64,000 nt of DNA from Solicoccozyma terricola (taxonomy: Eukaryota; Basidiomycota; Tremellomycetes; Filobasidiales; Piskurozymaceae): contig BCLD01000006.1 in assembly GCA_001600875.1 (NCBI GenBank), positions 883,017 to 947,016 on the forward strand, in the 5' to 3' direction. The stretch's first letter is position 1, and each line of letters opens with the position of its first letter. This document shows, piece by piece, positions 7,262 through 28,759 of the stretch. The position numbers and the translations under genes are program-made. The notes under the pieces are model-generated. The model worked only from the letters and a program-made list of their open reading frames with translations, was not told where the DNA came from and did no database searches.

Positions 7262-7342
<81 letters not shown>
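7262..7342. repeat. C81 homopolymer (poly-G on the minus strand)
   Basis: Eighty-one consecutive C residues follow GATCA. The run lies just upstream of, or in a first intron of, the small unknown gene on the minus strand. Homopolymers this long are rare in assembled genomes, so the true length may differ, for example through polymerase slippage or assembly padding. Confidence 0.9.
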
Positions 7343-21575: not shown

Positions 21576-22402
21576 AATGGTGATGAGTGAGATAAAATCT
21601 TGCTGTATTACTTCAAGCAGGCCGACGGAGAGAATCGATCTTGCAACATGAAAACCGTAAAGATGCATCCCTACAGGAACGGGCGATCTGTTGTAATTTG
21701 CCATTCTCGATTTCATATGAACGTAAAGACGCAGGGAGTAGTCTGCTATTGAATTCTGATGGTCAAACACCACATCAAACACTGAGTCTAGGACGAGAGA
21801 TCCAGGTTCGATTCGCTTTCAAACGTGAAGAGCCATCGAACAACAATCCCATTGACGGGGATCCTGCCCCTTGATGGACATTTTCAGAGAGTGATGGAGA
21901 TTCTATAGAGTCTAGTACCAGAGCCAGTCTAACAAGTCGCCATCGGGAGACAGCTGCTTCTTTCAATATCGCTGTGGATCGACCGACCAATCAGACGGGT
22001 GGCGTTGATCACGTGACTTCTGAGGAATTCCAGCGCCCATCATGCTCCTAGTCTGGACCTGATCGTCTTAAGCCAGTATAGCCACCTGCCGAACATTGTG
22101 TTACGTTGCAACCTGACAAGCACGTCCCACGACTCGATATCAACAGCATAGCATAGTCAGAGATCTAAGAGACCCCGTTTCCACCTCGTGAGAGGAAATA
22201 GGAAAAAAAGGGAGAAAAGGTCCCCTACTACAAGGGTTTGGAAAAGGGAAGTCGCTATTTCATTCCCAACTGACACCACGCCGTCGACCCTATCGTCAAA
22301 ACCCAAAACACCTGCTTCCACTCCTTCCCTCGTCCGGAATGTCTTTTTTTTGTTCATTACGGCGATCCGATGAGTTGGGAGTAGGGGAGGAGACGTTTTG
22401 AT
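21576..22402. other. Intergenic gap between convergent CEX1 and RPS23
   Basis: This 827-bp stretch lies between the 3' ends of two convergent genes. Short open frames are present on both strands, but none has conserved-looking sequence, a plausible splice structure or a recognised motif. It probably holds two 3' UTRs. I see no tRNA or clear structured RNA. Confidence 0.6.
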
Positions 22403-23808
22403 TTATGATCGTGGCTTCTCCTTCTTCTCCTTCCAGAGAGCGAGGAGACCGACACCAGAGACCTTGACGACCTTGAATCTGATAGTGGGGAGGGGGTGGA
22501 GGGTGAGCAAGCGTGGTCTGTGGGACGAGCTACAGAGAAGGGAAACTCACCGGACACCGGGAATATCACCCTTGGCCTTACCACGACGACCGAAACCAGA
22601 GATCAAGACCTCGTCGTTCTCGTCGACCTGAGATAGAGAATGAATATGTTCCCACGGGTCAGTTCGCTGCATTTGGCGGACGCTCCCCGCTCCTCGTCTC
22701 CTTCTTCGCTCCGCTTCGCTCCGCTTCGCTCCGCTTCGCTCGCGAAGTCAAAACACTCACAAAGTTCAAACAACCATCATTTGGCACGAAAGCGGTGACC
22801 TTCTTTCCGTTCTTGATGAGCTGAACTCGGACACACTTTCGGATAGCAGAGTTGGGTTGCTTGGCTTCAACACCGACCTGGATGGGTAAAGGGAAGGTGA
22901 GGGGAGATTGAGCATATGTCAGTTGACATTGATCTGATGTTATGCGTTCAAAGGCGATCGAGAAGTAGAGACACGGGAGAACAACAAGCGTAGCAGCAAT
23001 TTCACCAACGCGCCAGGCGAGAGAGGAGGGGTGGTTGAGAGACAGTCTGGTGGACCTCGGTGAAAGATGGGCAACGTCGTTGGTGGTTAAAGATAGCTGC
23101 TGATTCGACGATCATATCGTTGTCCTGTCCCATTATTGCGTCGGCACATTGCGCTTGACGATATGTAGACAGCACGGACAGCACAGCGGTTGTGGTGAAA
23201 ATATCCCGCTGTTTCTTTCTCGTATTTCCTTTGTGCGCAAAGACTGGATGTTGGTCGGTATTCATTCCGCTTAAAGATCCTCTCCAAGTGTTCTCCGAGT
23301 TCTCCTCTATGTCTCACTCCACTCGCAGAGTGTAGCTCACTCCGTTCGCGAAGAGAGAGAGAGTATTGCTCACTCCGTTCGCGGAAGACAGTCGTCTTCG
23401 CTCCGCGAAGAGATGAATGCTCGCTGCGCCCGCAGAAGCAAGCTCGCTAACGCGAGTATGGTCTTCGCTCCGCGAAGAAATGAATGCTCGCTACGCTCGC
23501 GTATCAAAGCTCGCTGGGCTCGCAAAGAACGCTCGCTTCGCTCCGACTTACCTTCTCCAAAACGATACCCTTAGCGTGAGAGCTTCCACCGGTAGGATTG
23601 GTCCTGTAAATGTTTCCCAACGCCCTCTTCTTGTACGATTTATCGGCCCATCTGTTCTCCCTCCTCGAAGTACGGAGCTTCCTAGCTGCTTGAAGACCTC
23701 TTGGTTTGCCGGCTGTGTGACGGGCGGGGTGAAGGGAAAGGAAGAAGAGAGCGAGAGTGAGTATGCGACCTTGCGACTCCCGTATGCGGAGTGATACATA
23801 CAACCCAT
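22403..23808 (-). CDS. RPS23: 40S ribosomal protein uS12 (S23)
   Basis: uS12 sits at the decoding centre of the small subunit. Five exons are resolved: 23808-23802, 23712-23552, 22877-22761, 22627-22551 and 22478-22403, giving 145 residues, the normal length. The first exon is only 7 nt (ATGGGTT, then donor GTATGT). The protein has [91 protein letters not shown] and [20 protein letters not shown]. The universally conserved PNS loop, with its hydroxylatable Pro in KQPNSAIRK, is intact. Two introns, 22628-22760 and 22878-23551 (674 nt), carry palindromic repeats close to their 5' splice sites. The second is about ten times longer than usual for this window. The gene is divergent from the antizyme gene, which starts at 24249. 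Confidence 0.97.
22705..22747 (-). repeat. Palindromic GCGAGCGAAGCG repeat in RPS23 intron (between exons 3 and 4)
   Basis: Four near-identical 10-bp units (CGCTTCGCTC on the plus strand) end in CGCTCGCGAAG. In the transcript sense the array begins 13 nt inside the intron, after a GTGAGT donor at 22760. It is the smallest copy of the family found in the neighbouring introns. Confidence 0.8.
23299..23548 (-). repeat. Degenerate palindromic repeat array in the long RPS23 intron
   Basis: About nine imperfect copies of a unit read in transcript sense as GCGAGCGNAGCGAGC followed by ATTCATTTCTTC fill 250 bp. The array begins 3 nt inside the GTAAGT donor at 23551, so the intron starts GTAAGTCGGAGCGAAGCGAG. 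Each core can fold on itself. The remainder of the intron (22878-23298) has no array. Confidence 0.85.
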
Positions 23809-24248
23809 GTTGATGAATGATGCTTGAGGATATCGGAGTAGGAGCAAACGACGAGCAGGAGGATAGGAAGGGGGCAAGGGGGGCAGGGCTTAAGCGCACA
23901 TTGAGTGGAAACAGAGAATGGGTGACACCGCGAGGCGCAGACCCGTTGGCGCGCTGACACGTGGCACCTCCGATAGCCCGCCGAAAGTTGCGCGTGAAAT
24001 AAAACAGTGCCCACCCTTATCAATTACTGGATGACATGTATTGACACGTGTACCCCACCCCAGCCCAGCCAGGTCATTCAGCCACCCCTCCCCCCCCTTC
24101 TCGCTTAGTCATCCGCCAAGTCAGTCTAGACGATCACACCATCCATCCACACCTCGTCCACCATCATCAACCATAACCACACAACAGCCACATCCATAAC
24201 CACATCCACATCCACATCCATATCCACCACAACCACCACCCTCACACA
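23809..24248. promoter_or_regulatory. Shared divergent promoter of RPS23 and antizyme with two CACGTG boxes
   Basis: This 440-bp gap separates two divergent start codons. Two CACGTG palindromes, the E-box core bound by fungal bHLH factors such as Cbf1, lie at 23958-23963 and 24045-24050 inside GACACGTG contexts. A CCACA/CATCCA-rich stretch at about 24130-24240 is probably the antizyme 5' UTR. Binding is inferred from motif only. Confidence 0.5.
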
Positions 24249-26237
24249 ATGTCTTCAAATACCAACACCCATCTCCTCTCTCTTCCCCAGTCCAACGACG
24301 ACTCGGATCCTGTTCTAGCTATAGCTAGGGTGTCCGGGGTGGGTGGCGTGGTGTACTCGTATAGGCATGATGAGGGGGAGGGCGGGGGTGGCAGGTGGTG
24401 GTTTTGAAGCAGGGTATGGGGAAATGCCTGCGGTGAGTCGCGAACGTAGTGAGCAGGGCGAGCGCAGCGAGCAATCATTTCGCGAGCGCAGCGAGCAATC
24501 ACGTCTGCATTCTTGGCGAGCGAAGCGAGCATTCATTGCTTCGCGAACGCAGTGAGCAATCATTTCTTCGCGAGCGAAGCGAGCATTCATCTCTTCGCGA
24601 AAGCCGTGAGCAATAATCTCGTAGCGAGCGCAGCGAGCAATCATTTCTTCGCGTCGCAAAGAACCTCGTCTTCCGCGAATGTAGTGAGCGTTACTCTCTT
24701 TGCGAGCGAGGCGTGGTCACAACATTTTCAAGCTCTGCGAGTATAGCTAGCGATACTCTTCGGTCGAAAGATCCACGACCTATCTTCGTGGTTGTCACGA
24801 CCAAGACGATCCATGCGCGTTGCAGAAATAGGCCGCAGAGAGATGATACCGATCTGATCCTCCTGGCGTTGTTGGTGTACTCTGTTCATGATACAATGCA
24901 TCTATTCGCTACGCGACCTCGACGAGCGATTCCTTCTGAATCCTTTCCAGTCACTGACGGGTTTTCTCATATCTCAACAGGATCTAATCGGCAGGTCGTC
25001 AACGTGGGTGACAAACGGGTTGACGCGACTTCATACTTCTTCCATGGGACACGATGGAATGAATACCTCTCCCTCTCCTTCTCCTTCTCGTTCTCCATCT
25101 CCTCCTCCTTCTCCACCGCCTCCTCTTCCTCATCATCATCCTTCTCAACATACGACGACGTCATTACCGGACGTTAGACCGACACAACATCTTCCACCTC
25201 CCACCACCCGACTACCACCTTCACCTTTTCAACCAACGACGACGACGACGACGACGACGACGACAACGACAACTACCACATACTCTGATCCTCTTCTCCA
25301 TCCACACGACCAACTCGACCGCTCCTCCTCCATCACCTCAACTTGCTCAGGTTCCTCCTATTCCTCTTCATCCGCCATCCACGGTCTCACCTCGTTACCT
25401 CGTTTCTCACCTAGCCGAGGACACGATTCCACTTCGTCTTCTGTGAATTCCGAATCATCTATGGGCGAGAGATTGGTATCTCCATCTACACCCCTTTTGA
25501 ATCTAGCAAAAGTCGGTAGGAAAAGTATGGTCAAGAGTTTCGAAAGTGGAGATGGGAATTTACTCGGGGGAACGATGACGCATCCTTTGTCATCTCGAGC
25601 GATTACCCAACCTCCAATTCGTGTAAAGGCACGACCGCCCAAACCGTCTTCAACTCGGAACCCACGATCACTCGAAACATTGACCAATTTCCTATCATCC
25701 GTTTTCCCAAATCACGCGATCACCGCTGTAAATCAATCTGAATTGATCGAACTGATCACCGCGTTCGTCGATGATTGTTGTATAGGCGCGATTGTGAATT
25801 CGGAATCCGATGGCGAAAAAGTCATGATCGTTCATCTCCCGCCGATGGGATTAACATCCTGCGACGTTGACCACGGTGACGACGACGACGACGACGACGA
25901 TGGGACGACGGCACCTTTGGATTCTCCTGGTATAGATATCCGAGATCAACTTACATCTCTACTCGACTTGGCGTCGGATTCACTACACGCTACCAAAGTC
26001 ATACTTGCTCTTCGTCGATCAGAGCGAGACGACGAGTCACTCCGTGTGCTATTACATTCATTAGCTTACGTCGGTGGAGAGGTATTGGTTTCGCCGTCTT
26101 CCGTGGGAGTCAGGGTGAGAGGGAGCGGTGGGAGGAGGATGGTCATGGGGATGGGGAATGGAGGGTGGGGTCTTGGAGAAGGGTGGGATTGGGAGTGGAA
26201 TGAGGAGGAGTGGGTGTTGGTGGGGATTGAGCTGTGA
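24249..26237 (+). CDS. OAZ1: Ornithine decarboxylase antizyme, expressed by +1 programmed frameshift
   Basis: Antizyme binds ornithine decarboxylase and drives its ubiquitin-independent degradation by the proteasome, giving feedback control of polyamines. ORF0 starts at 24249 (MSSNTNTHLLSLPQSNDDSD) and ends at TGA 24405-24407 after 52 codons. In the +1 frame the sequence continues as EAGYGEMPA to a GTGAGT donor at 24433. The 548-nt intron ends CAACAG at 24980, and exon 2 (24981-26237) continues in phase. The C-terminal antizyme domain reads LETLTNFLSSVFPNHAITAV, FVDDCCIGAIVN, VHLPPMGLTS, LLDLASDSLHATKVILALRR, LLHSLAYVGGEVL and EEWVLVGIEL. Total length after shift is about 479 residues, longer than animal antizymes because of a Ser/Pro/Thr-rich linker with a poly-Thr run. 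Without the shift only a 52-residue peptide is made. Family call and frameshift both rest on visible sequence. Confidence 0.9.
24402..24408 (+). promoter_or_regulatory. Programmed +1 ribosomal frameshift site (TTT TGA A)
   Basis: The in-frame stop TGA at 24405-24407 follows TTT at 24402-24404. Skipping one base gives GAA GCA GGG in the +1 frame and reaches the antizyme domain. This is the standard antizyme arrangement: a slow stop codon after a shift-prone codon, with efficiency raised by polyamines. Which stimulators act here is not known. Confidence 0.85.
24439..24720 (+). repeat. Tandem palindromic 27-bp repeat array in the antizyme intron
   Basis: About ten degenerate units follow each other at a period near 27 bp. 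The best copies read GCGAGCGAAGCGAGC followed by an ATTCAT or AATCATTTCTT spacer. The core is a perfect or near-perfect inverted repeat around N. The array begins 6 nt after the start of the intron (GTGAGTCGCGAACGTAGTG). Confidence 0.9.
25236..25282 (+). repeat. ACG triplet repeat coding for poly-threonine in antizyme
   Basis: A run of ACG triplets, interrupted by ACA and ACT near its end, encodes about fifteen consecutive threonines in the linker of the antizyme protein. A second short triplet run at about 25876-25900 encodes eight Asp. Confidence 0.85.
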
Positions 26238-26600
26238 TTGACGGATGGGGATTTGCTCGTCGGTGGTTGGGTGTTTGGTAGTTTTTACGAGTTTCTCTGG
26301 ATCCGGGTTGTTGTTTCGTTGTTTCTCTTCGGCTTCGGCTTCTGCTTCGTCTTCCTCCCCCTCCCCCTCCTCCCCCTTCTGCTCTACTCTCTTCTTCTCT
26401 TACTGGCCTAGGCTACATTGTATACCTCGTCGTGGCATGAGTATTGCACCACCGAATTAATTATTGAATCGATCGGGGAAAAAAAGAATCAACTGTGATG
26501 ACGAATCAGCATACGCGTTTCAGTTCGATCGATCTAACAACGAAGATGAGGAGGGATGCGTGTAACAATCATCAACTGAATCAGTAGCAGCCTATCTGCA
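26238..26600. other. Intergenic gap between antizyme and sirtuin genes
   Basis: These 363 bp hold the antizyme 3' UTR and the sirtuin promoter. A pyrimidine-rich stretch (26330-26400) and AT-rich sequence around 26455-26500 are visible. No coding or RNA gene is apparent. Confidence 0.6.
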
Positions 26601-28759
26601 ATGCGTATAACAATCCCCACCCTTCCCACGCCGTCCTCATCCAACCCCGCATTCCTCAACCCTCTTGCATCCATCACTCTCCCACTCGCCATCACTAAAA
26701 CAGCAGAGTTTCTCGAAAAGGGGAAGGGGAAGACGTTGGTGATTACTGGAGCGGGAGTTAGCGTTGATAGTGGTATAAGAGCGTATAGAGGTGATGAAGG
26801 ACATTGTGAGTAGATATTGGGTTGCGAGCGTAGTGAACAATCTGTTATGCTTGGAGCAGCGAAAGACTCTCGCTCGCATAACCAAGCTTTTCTTCCTCGG
26901 GGCGCGGCGCACCTAGGACCATGTCCCTGAGCGAAGCGAAGAATATCTCCTCTTGCGAACTCAGTGCGTTCGCAATACTCCCATTTCGAGCGAAGCGAGT
27001 GCTCGGAAGATCCTGGGAGTAGCGACGATGACCGTCTTCTGGGAGTCTAGCGAGCGAAACTGTCCGCAGCAAAGACTATTTCTTCCTGAGCGTAGCGAAG
27101 AACATTGTTTTCTGCGAGTTCTCTTTGTGTCTGCGATTGTACAAGTAGGAATAGAGTCTGCGTAGCTGAATGGTCATATTGGTTAAGATACGACGAACCC
27201 GAATTACAGGTTAGTTTGTCGAAAGGTCTATGTTTGAGAATTCGGGTAGTGTGTAGGAATTGAATCATCCCTGCCTGTGATCTTGTCAGACCGATCTTCT
27301 ATGGAGAACTCGTGGAACCTGGACCGAAAGGTTATACATTCAGGTGAGCCTGTCATCATTAAATTACTGGTCAATTTCTCGATGTACTCATTTTCTGAAA
27401 CTCTGCGAACACATCAGACAACGGTGTTTGTAGTGATTCCCTTGCTATACGATGCGATCCCACGACTAATGAGATTTTCCCTTGATCCACAGATTGGTCC
27501 CGATCTTACCTAGGTGTACGCCCCATTTTACAACCCTGCTTTCAACCTAGTTCATTGATTATCATTTTCATCTCAATCGTGTACAGTATCCACCAGTTCG
27601 AGACGCAAAGCCGAATCCAACCCATATGTATGTCGCAGCATTACAAAGCCTAGGACTAGCTCCGAACTTGATCACTCAGAATGTTAGTTCCGTCGTCGTT
27701 TCTCTCTCTCTCTCTCTCTCTCCACCCGATCGACACTTTGACTAATGTGTTGAGAATGTCCTACAGGTGGATCGCCTACATCACAAAGCATCACCATTCC
27801 CCGCGTCCGAAACTGACGACCGAATACTCGAATTACACGGAACACTTCATTTCGTACATTGCCCTTCTCATCATCATGTGAGACCAAGAGATGAGTATCA
27901 GAAGTTGTTAGGGAAGATGAATCCGAGGTGGGAGGAATTCGTAAAAGATGCAAAAGGTGGGAAAGAGATAAAGACGAATCCAGATGGTGATGTGAGGTTT
28001 TTTTTTCTTGGATTTGATCCGGTCTGAGTCGAGGGTTCTGCATGTCGCTGATGCACGAGAATTTTTGGTTCAAAAGGTCGATCTGAGAGGTGTGAAATAC
28101 GATCAATTCGTCGTTCCTGGATGTCACGAATGTGAAAAATTGGGTGTTCAAAATTCGATTGTTAAACCGAATGTGGTGTTTTTCGGGGAAACGATATCAG
28201 ATGCGGTTCGAGATCGATCGTTAGTCCGATTCAGGCTTTGTGTAGGGGGTTGGGGTTGGGTGGAAACGCTGATTGAATATTCGTGGGATGTACAGGTTCA
28301 GAATGGTATCAGAAAGTTCGAGGTTGTTGGTATTAGGAAGTTCACTGGCTACCTTCAGCGCATTTCGGTGCGTTTTGGGAAAAGTTCAAACGAAATGTCA
28401 GCTTATTTTTATTGAATGGTTGTAACCCGTCCTCACAGTCTAATCAAGCAAGCTCTGGAAACATCCAAACCCGTACTCATGATATCACTTGGACCATCAA
28501 GAGCTGATAAGTTACCAGGTGTTGAGAAGATCGAGATGAAGGCCGGGAATGTGTTGCGGGGGGTACTGGAGCGTCACGTAGGGTGAGTTGCAAGGCTGCG
28601 GTTGCGGTTGCAGTATCATGTATACGGTTCTTCTACTGATCCGATTGGCTTCCTAATAGACAAGAGCAAGGGTCACTAGAGCAGGAGGTCCGGAGTATGA
28701 TGGATCGAGGTGTTGTCAAGGAGACTGACTATGTCGAAGGTCCACGAGCTGAGGGATAG
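26601..28759 (+). CDS. Sirtuin, NAD-dependent deacylase, SIRT4-like class
   Basis: This is an NAD-dependent lysine deacylase of the SIRT4-like group, which is usually mitochondrial. The NAD pocket motif TLVITGAGVSVDSGIRAYRG starts at about residue 49. Later motifs are HMYVAALQSLGLAPNLITQN, VDRLHHKA, the catalytic His in LELHGTLHFVHC, KPNVVFFGE, and LLVLGSSLATFSAFR. The second zinc pair is intact (PGCHEC), but the first is CPSH instead of CxxC. Eleven exons give 363 residues. They include 22 nt (27188-27209), 8 nt (27418-27425) and 23 nt (27493-27515) exons that restore the conserved NPNYRPIFYGELVEPG and RQRYWSRSYLG stretches. The first intron (26806-27187) is 382 nt and carries palindromic repeats; the others are about 60-85 nt. 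The Thr/Ser/Pro-rich start (MRITIPTLPTPSSSNPAF) could be a targeting peptide. Confidence 0.9.
26822..27125 (+). repeat. Palindromic repeat array in sirtuin intron 1
   Basis: Degenerate copies of GCGAGCGTAGTGAACAATC and GAGCGAAGCGAG are scattered over 300 bp. The array begins about 16 nt after the GTGAGT donor at 26806. Copies are more diverged than in the antizyme intron, but the leading unit and its orientation match. Confidence 0.75.

Follow-up and report, generated by a model that had tools for sequence, protein, structure and literature searches.

Introns of the basidiomycete Solicoccozyma terricola carry tandem arrays of a short repeat unit, predicted from covariation to be a strand-specific mini-hairpin, and these arrays stand mostly beside the 5′ splice site (donor) and nearly always in the sense orientation. 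The arrays were recognized in introns of the RPS23, antizyme, and sirtuin genes within a 64-kb stretch of contig C6 (the whole of which is called the window here) of the 23.9-Mb genome, and arrays at loci sampled throughout the genome obey the same rules of intron location, sense strand, and closeness to the donor. We tentatively read the repeat as a dispersed, amplifying DNA hairpin element that colonizes introns at their donor end in the sense orientation, with more doubt than assurance attached to that reading.

Results

The Repeat Is Dispersed across the Genome

The exact core of the unit, GCGAGCGNAGCGAGC, occurs at 532 sites in the genome, compared with 14 for the same pattern read backwards; at ≤1 mismatch the figures are 978 and 341, the latter control overlapping the repeat's own period. 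A covarying AT form of the core is found at 234 exact sites and its backwards-read pattern at none. Core sites lie on at least 20 of the 33 contigs among the matches listed, a distribution that rules out local gene conversion or regional spread, and the restriction to ~4.5 kb given in a preliminary description of the window was wrong. Contig C1 has 25 clusters that include an exact core in one form or the other, ~10 per Mb, from which we extrapolate ~250 arrays in the genome; the introns bearing them probably number a couple of hundred. Among the 143 clusters listed, opposite-strand neighbors within 5 kb were divergent in 10 cases and convergent in none, as would be expected if the introns lay near the 5′ ends of genes transcribed divergently, and same-strand neighbors within that distance numbered four. 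Unit spacing peaks at 23 and 27–28 nt, with a tandem period of 27, and the arrays consist of head-to-tail units within the 10- to 60-nt range of minisatellites. Array introns of unlinked genes can share long similarity, reaching 79% over 457 nt between loci L028 and L041 and 81% over 403 nt between L032 and L047.

Most Arrays Occupy Same-Strand Introns Close to the Donor

Forty loci (20 of 10 kb and 20 of 2 kb), every one picked for an exact core, were analyzed together with the window. The first 20 were the earliest by contig order among 135 candidate regions, with one overlapping region skipped, and the second 20 were hand-picked from listed clusters on contigs C3 to C14, nearly all of them multi-site. 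Genes were predicted with a self-written, self-trained gene finder, which yielded 80 genes and 721 introns with a median intron length of 77 nt and the donor consensus GTGAGT. The gene finder over-joins genes (9% intergenic), so intron fraction and intron ordinals are inflated, and its errors included the donor of a Rab-type GTPase gene (PF00071) at L012, which was fixed by eye, the sirtuin intron, and several introns that ended inside arrays.

Of the 57 arrays in the 40 loci and the window, 53 lie in or overlap a same-strand predicted intron. In the first set plus the window, 30 of 33 arrays were inside a same-strand intron (P = 2e-11 against the inflated intron fraction of 34%), one overlapped such an intron, one was in an opposite-strand intron, and one was in an opposite-strand exon. 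The second set of 24 arrays had 18 inside a same-strand intron, 4 more overlapping one, and 2 opposite. At one of these two, L048, the array comes after a plausible start of coding sequence on its sense strand and a GTGAGT, and the gene strand was probably misassigned by the gene finder; inspection of L029, L018, and L011 gave no correction of placement of this kind. Perfect structural matches of the unit were found in introns 111 times in the sense and once in the antisense orientation, and once in exons.

Donor proximity was also assessed by an annotation-free test on the 52 arrays with at least two units. GTRAGT stood upstream within 30 nt of 34 arrays, within 60 nt of 38, and within 100 nt of 41, whereas three controls gave 0–1 of 52 within 60 nt and 0–2 across distances. 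For the 41 arrays with the motif within 100 nt, the median distance to the first base of GTRAGT was 14 nt, and nine of the other 11 follow a different donor type or a farther donor in the gene models. Distances are skewed toward the donor, with 14 of the 36 arrays within 45 nt sitting at ≤10 nt versus 12.5% under uniform placement (P = 6e-5). The intron location, sense orientation, and donor proximity described for the window hold up in these sampled loci. There is also a 5′-proximal bias: by the inflated ordinals of the gene models, first introns make up 11 of 28 array introns and 68 of 693 others (P = 6e-5). Many arrays begin with GTGAGTG. One predicted intron of 116 nt, at L014 4996–5111 (+), has a single unit fused to its donor and is perhaps an early stage of an array. 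A fixed register between donor and first unit, as insertion by microhomology would give, was not seen by eye in the listed array introns.

Homology of the predicted proteins fixes the boundaries of array introns in two genes. The RPS23 protein gives a 143-residue ungapped alignment to solved uS12 chains that spans both of its array introns, and the NBP35 protein (L028), with its two array introns spliced out, gives gap-free alignments to the proteins of two tremellomycetes, being 89% identical to that of Naganishia cerealis and 85% identical to that of Cryptococcus decagattii. The antizyme and sirtuin introns are supported more weakly than those of RPS23. Domains encoded by other host genes are guanylate kinase, polyprenyl synthetase, UBA-like, condensin Cnd2, BCS1, NmrA, 2-hydroxyacid dehydrogenase, and cytochrome b5.

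Covariation Points to a Strand-Specific Mini-Hairpin

The unit is modeled as a 15-mer, GC-GA-GC-[GNA]-GC-GA-GC, in which positions 1-15, 2-14, 5-11, and 6-10 form Watson–Crick pairs, positions 3-4 and 12-13 set GA against GA, and positions 7-9 are G-N-A. In a comparison of all column pairs over 224 distinct units, mutual information was highest for 5-11 (GC 150, AT 48, GT 8, and AC 5). Position 8 is free, and both GA dinucleotides and A9 are conserved at 94–99%, a conservation that is inflated because the units were taken at ≤4 mismatches to one consensus. Pairs 1-15 and 2-14 change jointly in the CTGAGCGNAGCGAAG form. For a further test, 68 of 110 distinct cores were chosen by hand and aligned; the 42 omitted include many of the most degenerate, which raises the percentage paired. 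In this alignment, cells changed on both sides numbered 26, versus 9.9 ± 2.5 in shuffles (0 of 500) and 1–8 with slid pairing, and the covariation score was 0.373 versus 0.263 shuffled (0 of 500). Genome-wide, the 5-11 combinations are GC 532, AT 234, and mixed 41, against ~350 mixed expected under independence. The reverse complement of the unit would have C·T mismatches and a TNC loop, so that the predicted structure is confined to the sense strand. The unit had been described as palindromic, but it is not a Watson–Crick palindrome, and covariation argues instead for a mini-hairpin, the tandem G·A pairs of which may have sheared geometry.

Companion hairpins accompany the units in the array introns. 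Among Watson–Crick hairpins with stems of at least 6 bp in the 46 array introns, GGA occupies 21 of 26 three-base loops, and GTTA or GTCA occupies 16 of 28 four-base loops. The companion GCTCCC-GTYA-GGGAGC is also found in compensated form, once as GCTCGC-GTTA-GCGAGC and once as CTCGC-GTTA-GCGAG. The companions fold well alone as RNA, at about −10 and −12 kcal/mol (z −3.9 and −4.9), and the GGA companion does so as DNA (−7.3, z −4.2).

Extraordinary stability is reported for DNA mini-hairpins that have GNA or GNNA as the loop and contain two or more G-C pairs, GCGAAGC melting at 78 °C (PMC4686876, excerpted text), and a sheared G·A pair is typical of GNA loops (PMC6479982, likewise excerpted). 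Judged by their sequences, the GC-form unit and the companions have such loops closed by two G-C pairs: the center of the GC-form unit is literally the GCGNAGC of the d(GCGNAGC) mini-hairpins of these two sources, and the companion GTYA fits GNNA. The AT-form unit differs from them in having just one closing G-C pair. The excerpted sources know these mini-hairpins from oligonucleotides and cite a loop of this type in one intronic G-quadruplex sequence (chl1), and in that text no repeat arrays are mentioned.

Arrays Decay toward the Acceptor and Are Shared on the Donor Side

In introns with at least four units (n = 45), the donor-side half of the array was cleaner than the acceptor-side half in 30, and the reverse held in 6 (P = 2e-4), and perfect units amount to 33% in the last, acceptor-side fifth versus 62–67% elsewhere. 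Array ends are undefined, the acceptor-side end being decayed. BLAST comparison between the 46 array introns produced 1,369 segments. In 22 of these the similarity extended, for both members, to 12 nt or less from the donor, and no segment approached the acceptor to within 40 nt; the final 100 nt of the introns gave five weak short pairs, one of them from an intron model ending inside its array. Similarity over whole introns, by which introners are recognized, was therefore not found.

The Same Core Occurs in Prokaryotic and Viral Contigs

Prokaryotic contigs have spaced pairs of the core in at least 117 stretches and viral contigs in 54, so the unit can be repeated without splicing; as far as tested, the donor rule is special to the fungus. 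Pairs or arrays of the 15-nt core are present in actinobacteria, Verrucomicrobia, Bacteroidota, Oligoflexales, haloarchaea, and viral contigs. Raw enrichment is modest, as control patterns in viral contigs gave 8 stretches (ANG loop) and 28 stretches (arms swapped) versus the 54 real ones. Viral pairs fall inside long open frames in 13 of 56 cases, versus 9 of 9 and 26 of 28 for the controls. Prokaryotic pairs lie in open frames of at least 150 codons in 109 of 140 cases, which says little in GC-rich genomes. The AT form occurs as pairs in six viral stretches, and one viral contig (L203, ~1586–1825, −) contains the GC form and the compensated AT form in one stretch. A single orientation rule was not found in the prokaryotic and viral arrays.

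Discussion

The reading that we tentatively favor, a DNA hairpin repeat amplifying at the donor end of introns, would have the hairpin required for copying rather than for a host function. Only hairpin-capable units would multiply, which on this proposal is why compensated variants persist while old units rot, and it would be amplification, not a need of the host, that preserves unit structure. Copying would act on the sense (non-template) strand, which transcription would expose as single-stranded DNA, mostly in 5′-proximal introns; mini-hairpins on it may promote slippage or template-switch repair, through which units would be added beside the donor, and other introns would be seeded now and then. 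Splicing would take the array out, and introns would be lengthened, not created. A wider proposition, itself speculative and in our view doubtful, is that the arrays represent a new class of selfish DNA, made of noncanonical mini-hairpins, that would use transcription or splicing to recognize donor sites, insert and grow only there and only in the sense orientation, and so expand existing introns; the spaced pairs of the same hairpin in viral, bacterial, and archaeal contigs would then make it a generic self-amplifying structure, confined by the fungus to donor ends.

Several results weigh against a self-amplifying DNA hairpin. Folding energies of the 15-mer are −2.1 kcal/mol for RNA and ~0 for DNA, no better than those of shuffles, and the AT form folds worse; the antizyme array has a folding z of +1.4 to +2.0, less stable than its shuffles whether modeled as RNA or DNA and for both strands; and among hairpins with 5-bp stems CGAG, which represents a competing fold of the repeat, is the most frequent four-base loop (27 of 90). 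Thermodynamic support for structure of the unit or of the whole array was thus not obtained, folding being no better than in shuffles. Nearest-neighbor energy models may treat such noncanonical motifs poorly. Two of the five covariation measures are at shuffle level (both-side-changed pairs 3 versus 3.2 and pair types 8 versus 8.0), and the covariation signal could reflect a few inherited double changes. The AT form, with its 234 exact sites, has one G-C and one A-T closing pair and falls outside the two-G-C rule of the stable DNA mini-hairpins. Two of the 52 arrays, at L018 and L029, have no evident donor, and strand exposure by itself leaves donor anchoring unexplained. Orientation outside the fungus is inconsistent, with the upstream neighbor co-directional or opposed in 14 and 7 cases in prokaryotes and in 5 and 30 in viral contigs (simple open reading frame calling). 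The absence of a second closing G-C pair from the AT form, together with the location of most prokaryotic pairs in open frames, led us to lower our estimate of the favored explanation and to raise that of a function at the RNA level.

That function is the main rival, although we consider it unlikely: sense RNA hairpins would aid splicing by compacting long introns so that the donor meets the branch point, by displaying the donor, or by serving as a protein-binding site. The sense orientation of the arrays and their position beside the donor would follow from it, and GTGAGT donors are enriched in array introns (33 of 46, versus 209 of 693 other donors); covariation and the compensated AT form fit RNA as well as DNA, and tandem G·A pairs and GNA loops are possible in RNA. 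However, the array as RNA lacks excess folding stability, GTYA is not a GNRA loop, acceptor-side units decay, copy number per intron is highly variable, and the extra length to be compensated comes from the arrays themselves. RNA hairpins acting on splicing had been proposed for the window; the hairpin is borne out by covariation, but nothing shows action on splicing, and the loops also match known DNA mini-hairpins. Neutral tolerance is a less probable account, in which an ordinary dispersed minisatellite lands anywhere and selection spares only the copies in the spacer between donor and branch point. It would suit the decay of distal units and the short introns of the fungus, with their median of 77 nt, which accept insertions only in that spacer. 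Intergenic and antisense-intronic copies need not harm, though, and yet just the two arrays named above are without a same-strand donor and 4 of 57 are on the opposite strand, at least one of these being a gene-model error; the skew of distances toward the donor also disagrees with it.

Two further suggestions, both made in the preliminary description, appear to us very unlikely. If the arrays were introner-like elements, that is, mobile introns whose copies create new introns, one would expect them to be intronic, sense-oriented, long, structured, and spread over many unlinked genes, and all of this is seen, including location in genes in the sense orientation for 53 of the 57 arrays; their structure also parallels the stable secondary structures or inverted repeats predicted for fungal introner-like elements (PMC8469720, excerpted text). 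It is the whole-intron comparison that speaks against the label, since copies are alike on the donor side and not on the acceptor side (22 of 1,369 segments reach the donor and none the acceptor, with just the five weak pairs in the last 100 nt), as do the internal tandem units and their variable copy number. If local duplication within each intron had instead produced the arm GCGAGC from the donor GTGAGT, the two T-to-C changes that separate arm and donor, the single fused unit at L014, and the many arrays opening with GTGAGTG would be accommodated, so that this origin is possible in principle. Units, spacers, and companions are nevertheless common to unlinked introns, which makes independent origin unlikely; no fixed donor-to-unit register was seen by eye; and the seed GCGNAGC has no sense excess in other introns (11 sense and 20 antisense).

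Among known systems, introners and the fungal introner-like elements of Dothideomycetes likewise lie in introns in many copies, in unlinked genes, and are longer than ordinary introns (PMC4457414 and PMC9860276, excerpts), but here only the donor-side array is shared, acceptor halves are unique, and the units are tandem mini-hairpins. The internally symmetrical stwintrons of Hypoxylaceae are also proliferating fungal introns with palindromic structure suspected in their propagation, for which double-strand-break repair is one proposed route; as far as the excerpted account goes, they are whole introns with terminal inverted repeats of 45–55 nt, in contrast to the many small tandem hairpins found here (PMC8469720). 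Minisatellites share tandem units of ~22–30 nt and variable copy number with the present arrays, which differ from them in being spread over many loci under an intron, strand, and donor rule. Bacterial REP/BIME palindromes are short hairpin units in many dispersed copies, often arrayed, that lie between genes; the arrays resemble them in their dispersed hairpin units and differ in location. Fungal introner-like elements and minisatellites are the nearest kinds, the former set apart by the whole-intron comparison and the latter exceeded by the placement rules. No description of such arrays was found among the top-ranked matches for several queries of the openly licensed literature, and the unit sequences as text strings were also without a match there.

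The placement rule is sharp in every sample taken and bears on how introns lengthen and on how a noncoding repeat keeps to one side of the splice site and to one strand. Should the hairpin drive amplification, an in vivo role would be given to a motif known mainly from oligonucleotides. Should the arrays act in splicing, they would be a new kind of donor-adjacent structural element.

Array Introns of the Window

A pattern scan of the window at ≤3 mismatches returned 26 matches, versus 4.1 ± 2.2 expected, and none of 100 shuffles reached 26. A covariance model of the unit, for which some of the window's own units were used, gave 18 matches at E < 0.01, all of them in introns 22878–23551 (−), 24433–~24994 (+), and 26806–27187 (+); the next match (E = 0.012) also fell in the RPS23 array, and the best match outside array introns was at 1003 (+), E = 0.014. 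The first unit is offset from the first base of the intron by 6 nt in RPS23 intron 22878–23551, 7 nt in antizyme, and 18 nt in sirtuin. A search of positions 22400–27400 for Rfam families found none in the arrays, the single subthreshold match falling outside them. Array coordinates, direction relative to transcription, and intron location had been given correctly for the window (Table 1), and of the four introns assigned to one repeat family, three do carry unit arrays; the fourth, RPS23 intron 22628–22760, has a related but different decamer array, which the unit covariance model scores at just 11.5 bits.

Table 1. Positions of array introns, arrays, and companion hairpins in the window
Feature	Position	Strand	Basis
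RPS23 intron, 674 nt, with mini-hairpin array inside	22878–23551	−	Donor GTAAGT at 23546–23551; junction K/VGVEAK ungapped against uS12 chains
Seven GCGAGCGNAGCGAGC-family units (≤3 mismatches)	23312–23545	−	Pattern scan and covariance model; first unit 6 nt past first intron base
Companion hairpin TTCGC-GGA-GCGAA, GNA loop	23464–23476; further copy 23397–23409	−	Hairpin search of array introns
Companion hairpin TCGC-GTTA-GCGA, compensated variant of GCTCCC-GTYA-GGGAGC	23444–23455	−	Hairpin search
RPS23 second array intron, 133 nt	22628–22760	−	Exon junction V/DENDEV ungapped against uS12 chains
Decamer array, its sense strand containing the d(GCGAAGC) mini-hairpin sequence three times	22704–22741	−	3.8 decamer copies
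Antizyme intron	24433–24980	+	Donor GTGAGT at 24433; acceptor 24980 (preliminary description) or 24994 (gene model)
Antizyme array	24440–24754	+	11 pattern matches, some overlapping; 9 covariance-model matches at E ≤ 0.03; less perfect toward acceptor
Sirtuin intron	26806–27187	+	Donor GTGAGT at 26806; acceptor by eye from reading frame
Sirtuin decayed array	26821–27103 (units 26821–26841, 26924–26944, 26983–27003, 27083–27103)	+	Covariance model, E = 1e-5 to 2e-4

In the antizyme gene, PF02100 is found in the downstream exon, which leaves the acceptor ambiguous by 14 nt. The sirtuin acceptor is weakly supported, with a short PDB match to the first exon and no match in the Pfam search, and the self-trained gene model gave 26791–27289 in place of 26806–27187. 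Long poly-C runs are present in the window, where one of 81 nt lies at 7262–7342, and in array introns of L010, L016, L026, and L028; those in the array introns of L010, L026, and L028 stand shortly before the acceptor. The antizyme reading frame (24249–24432) closes with TGA inside TTTTGA, shortly 5′ of the array intron, an end that may correspond to a +1 frameshift site.

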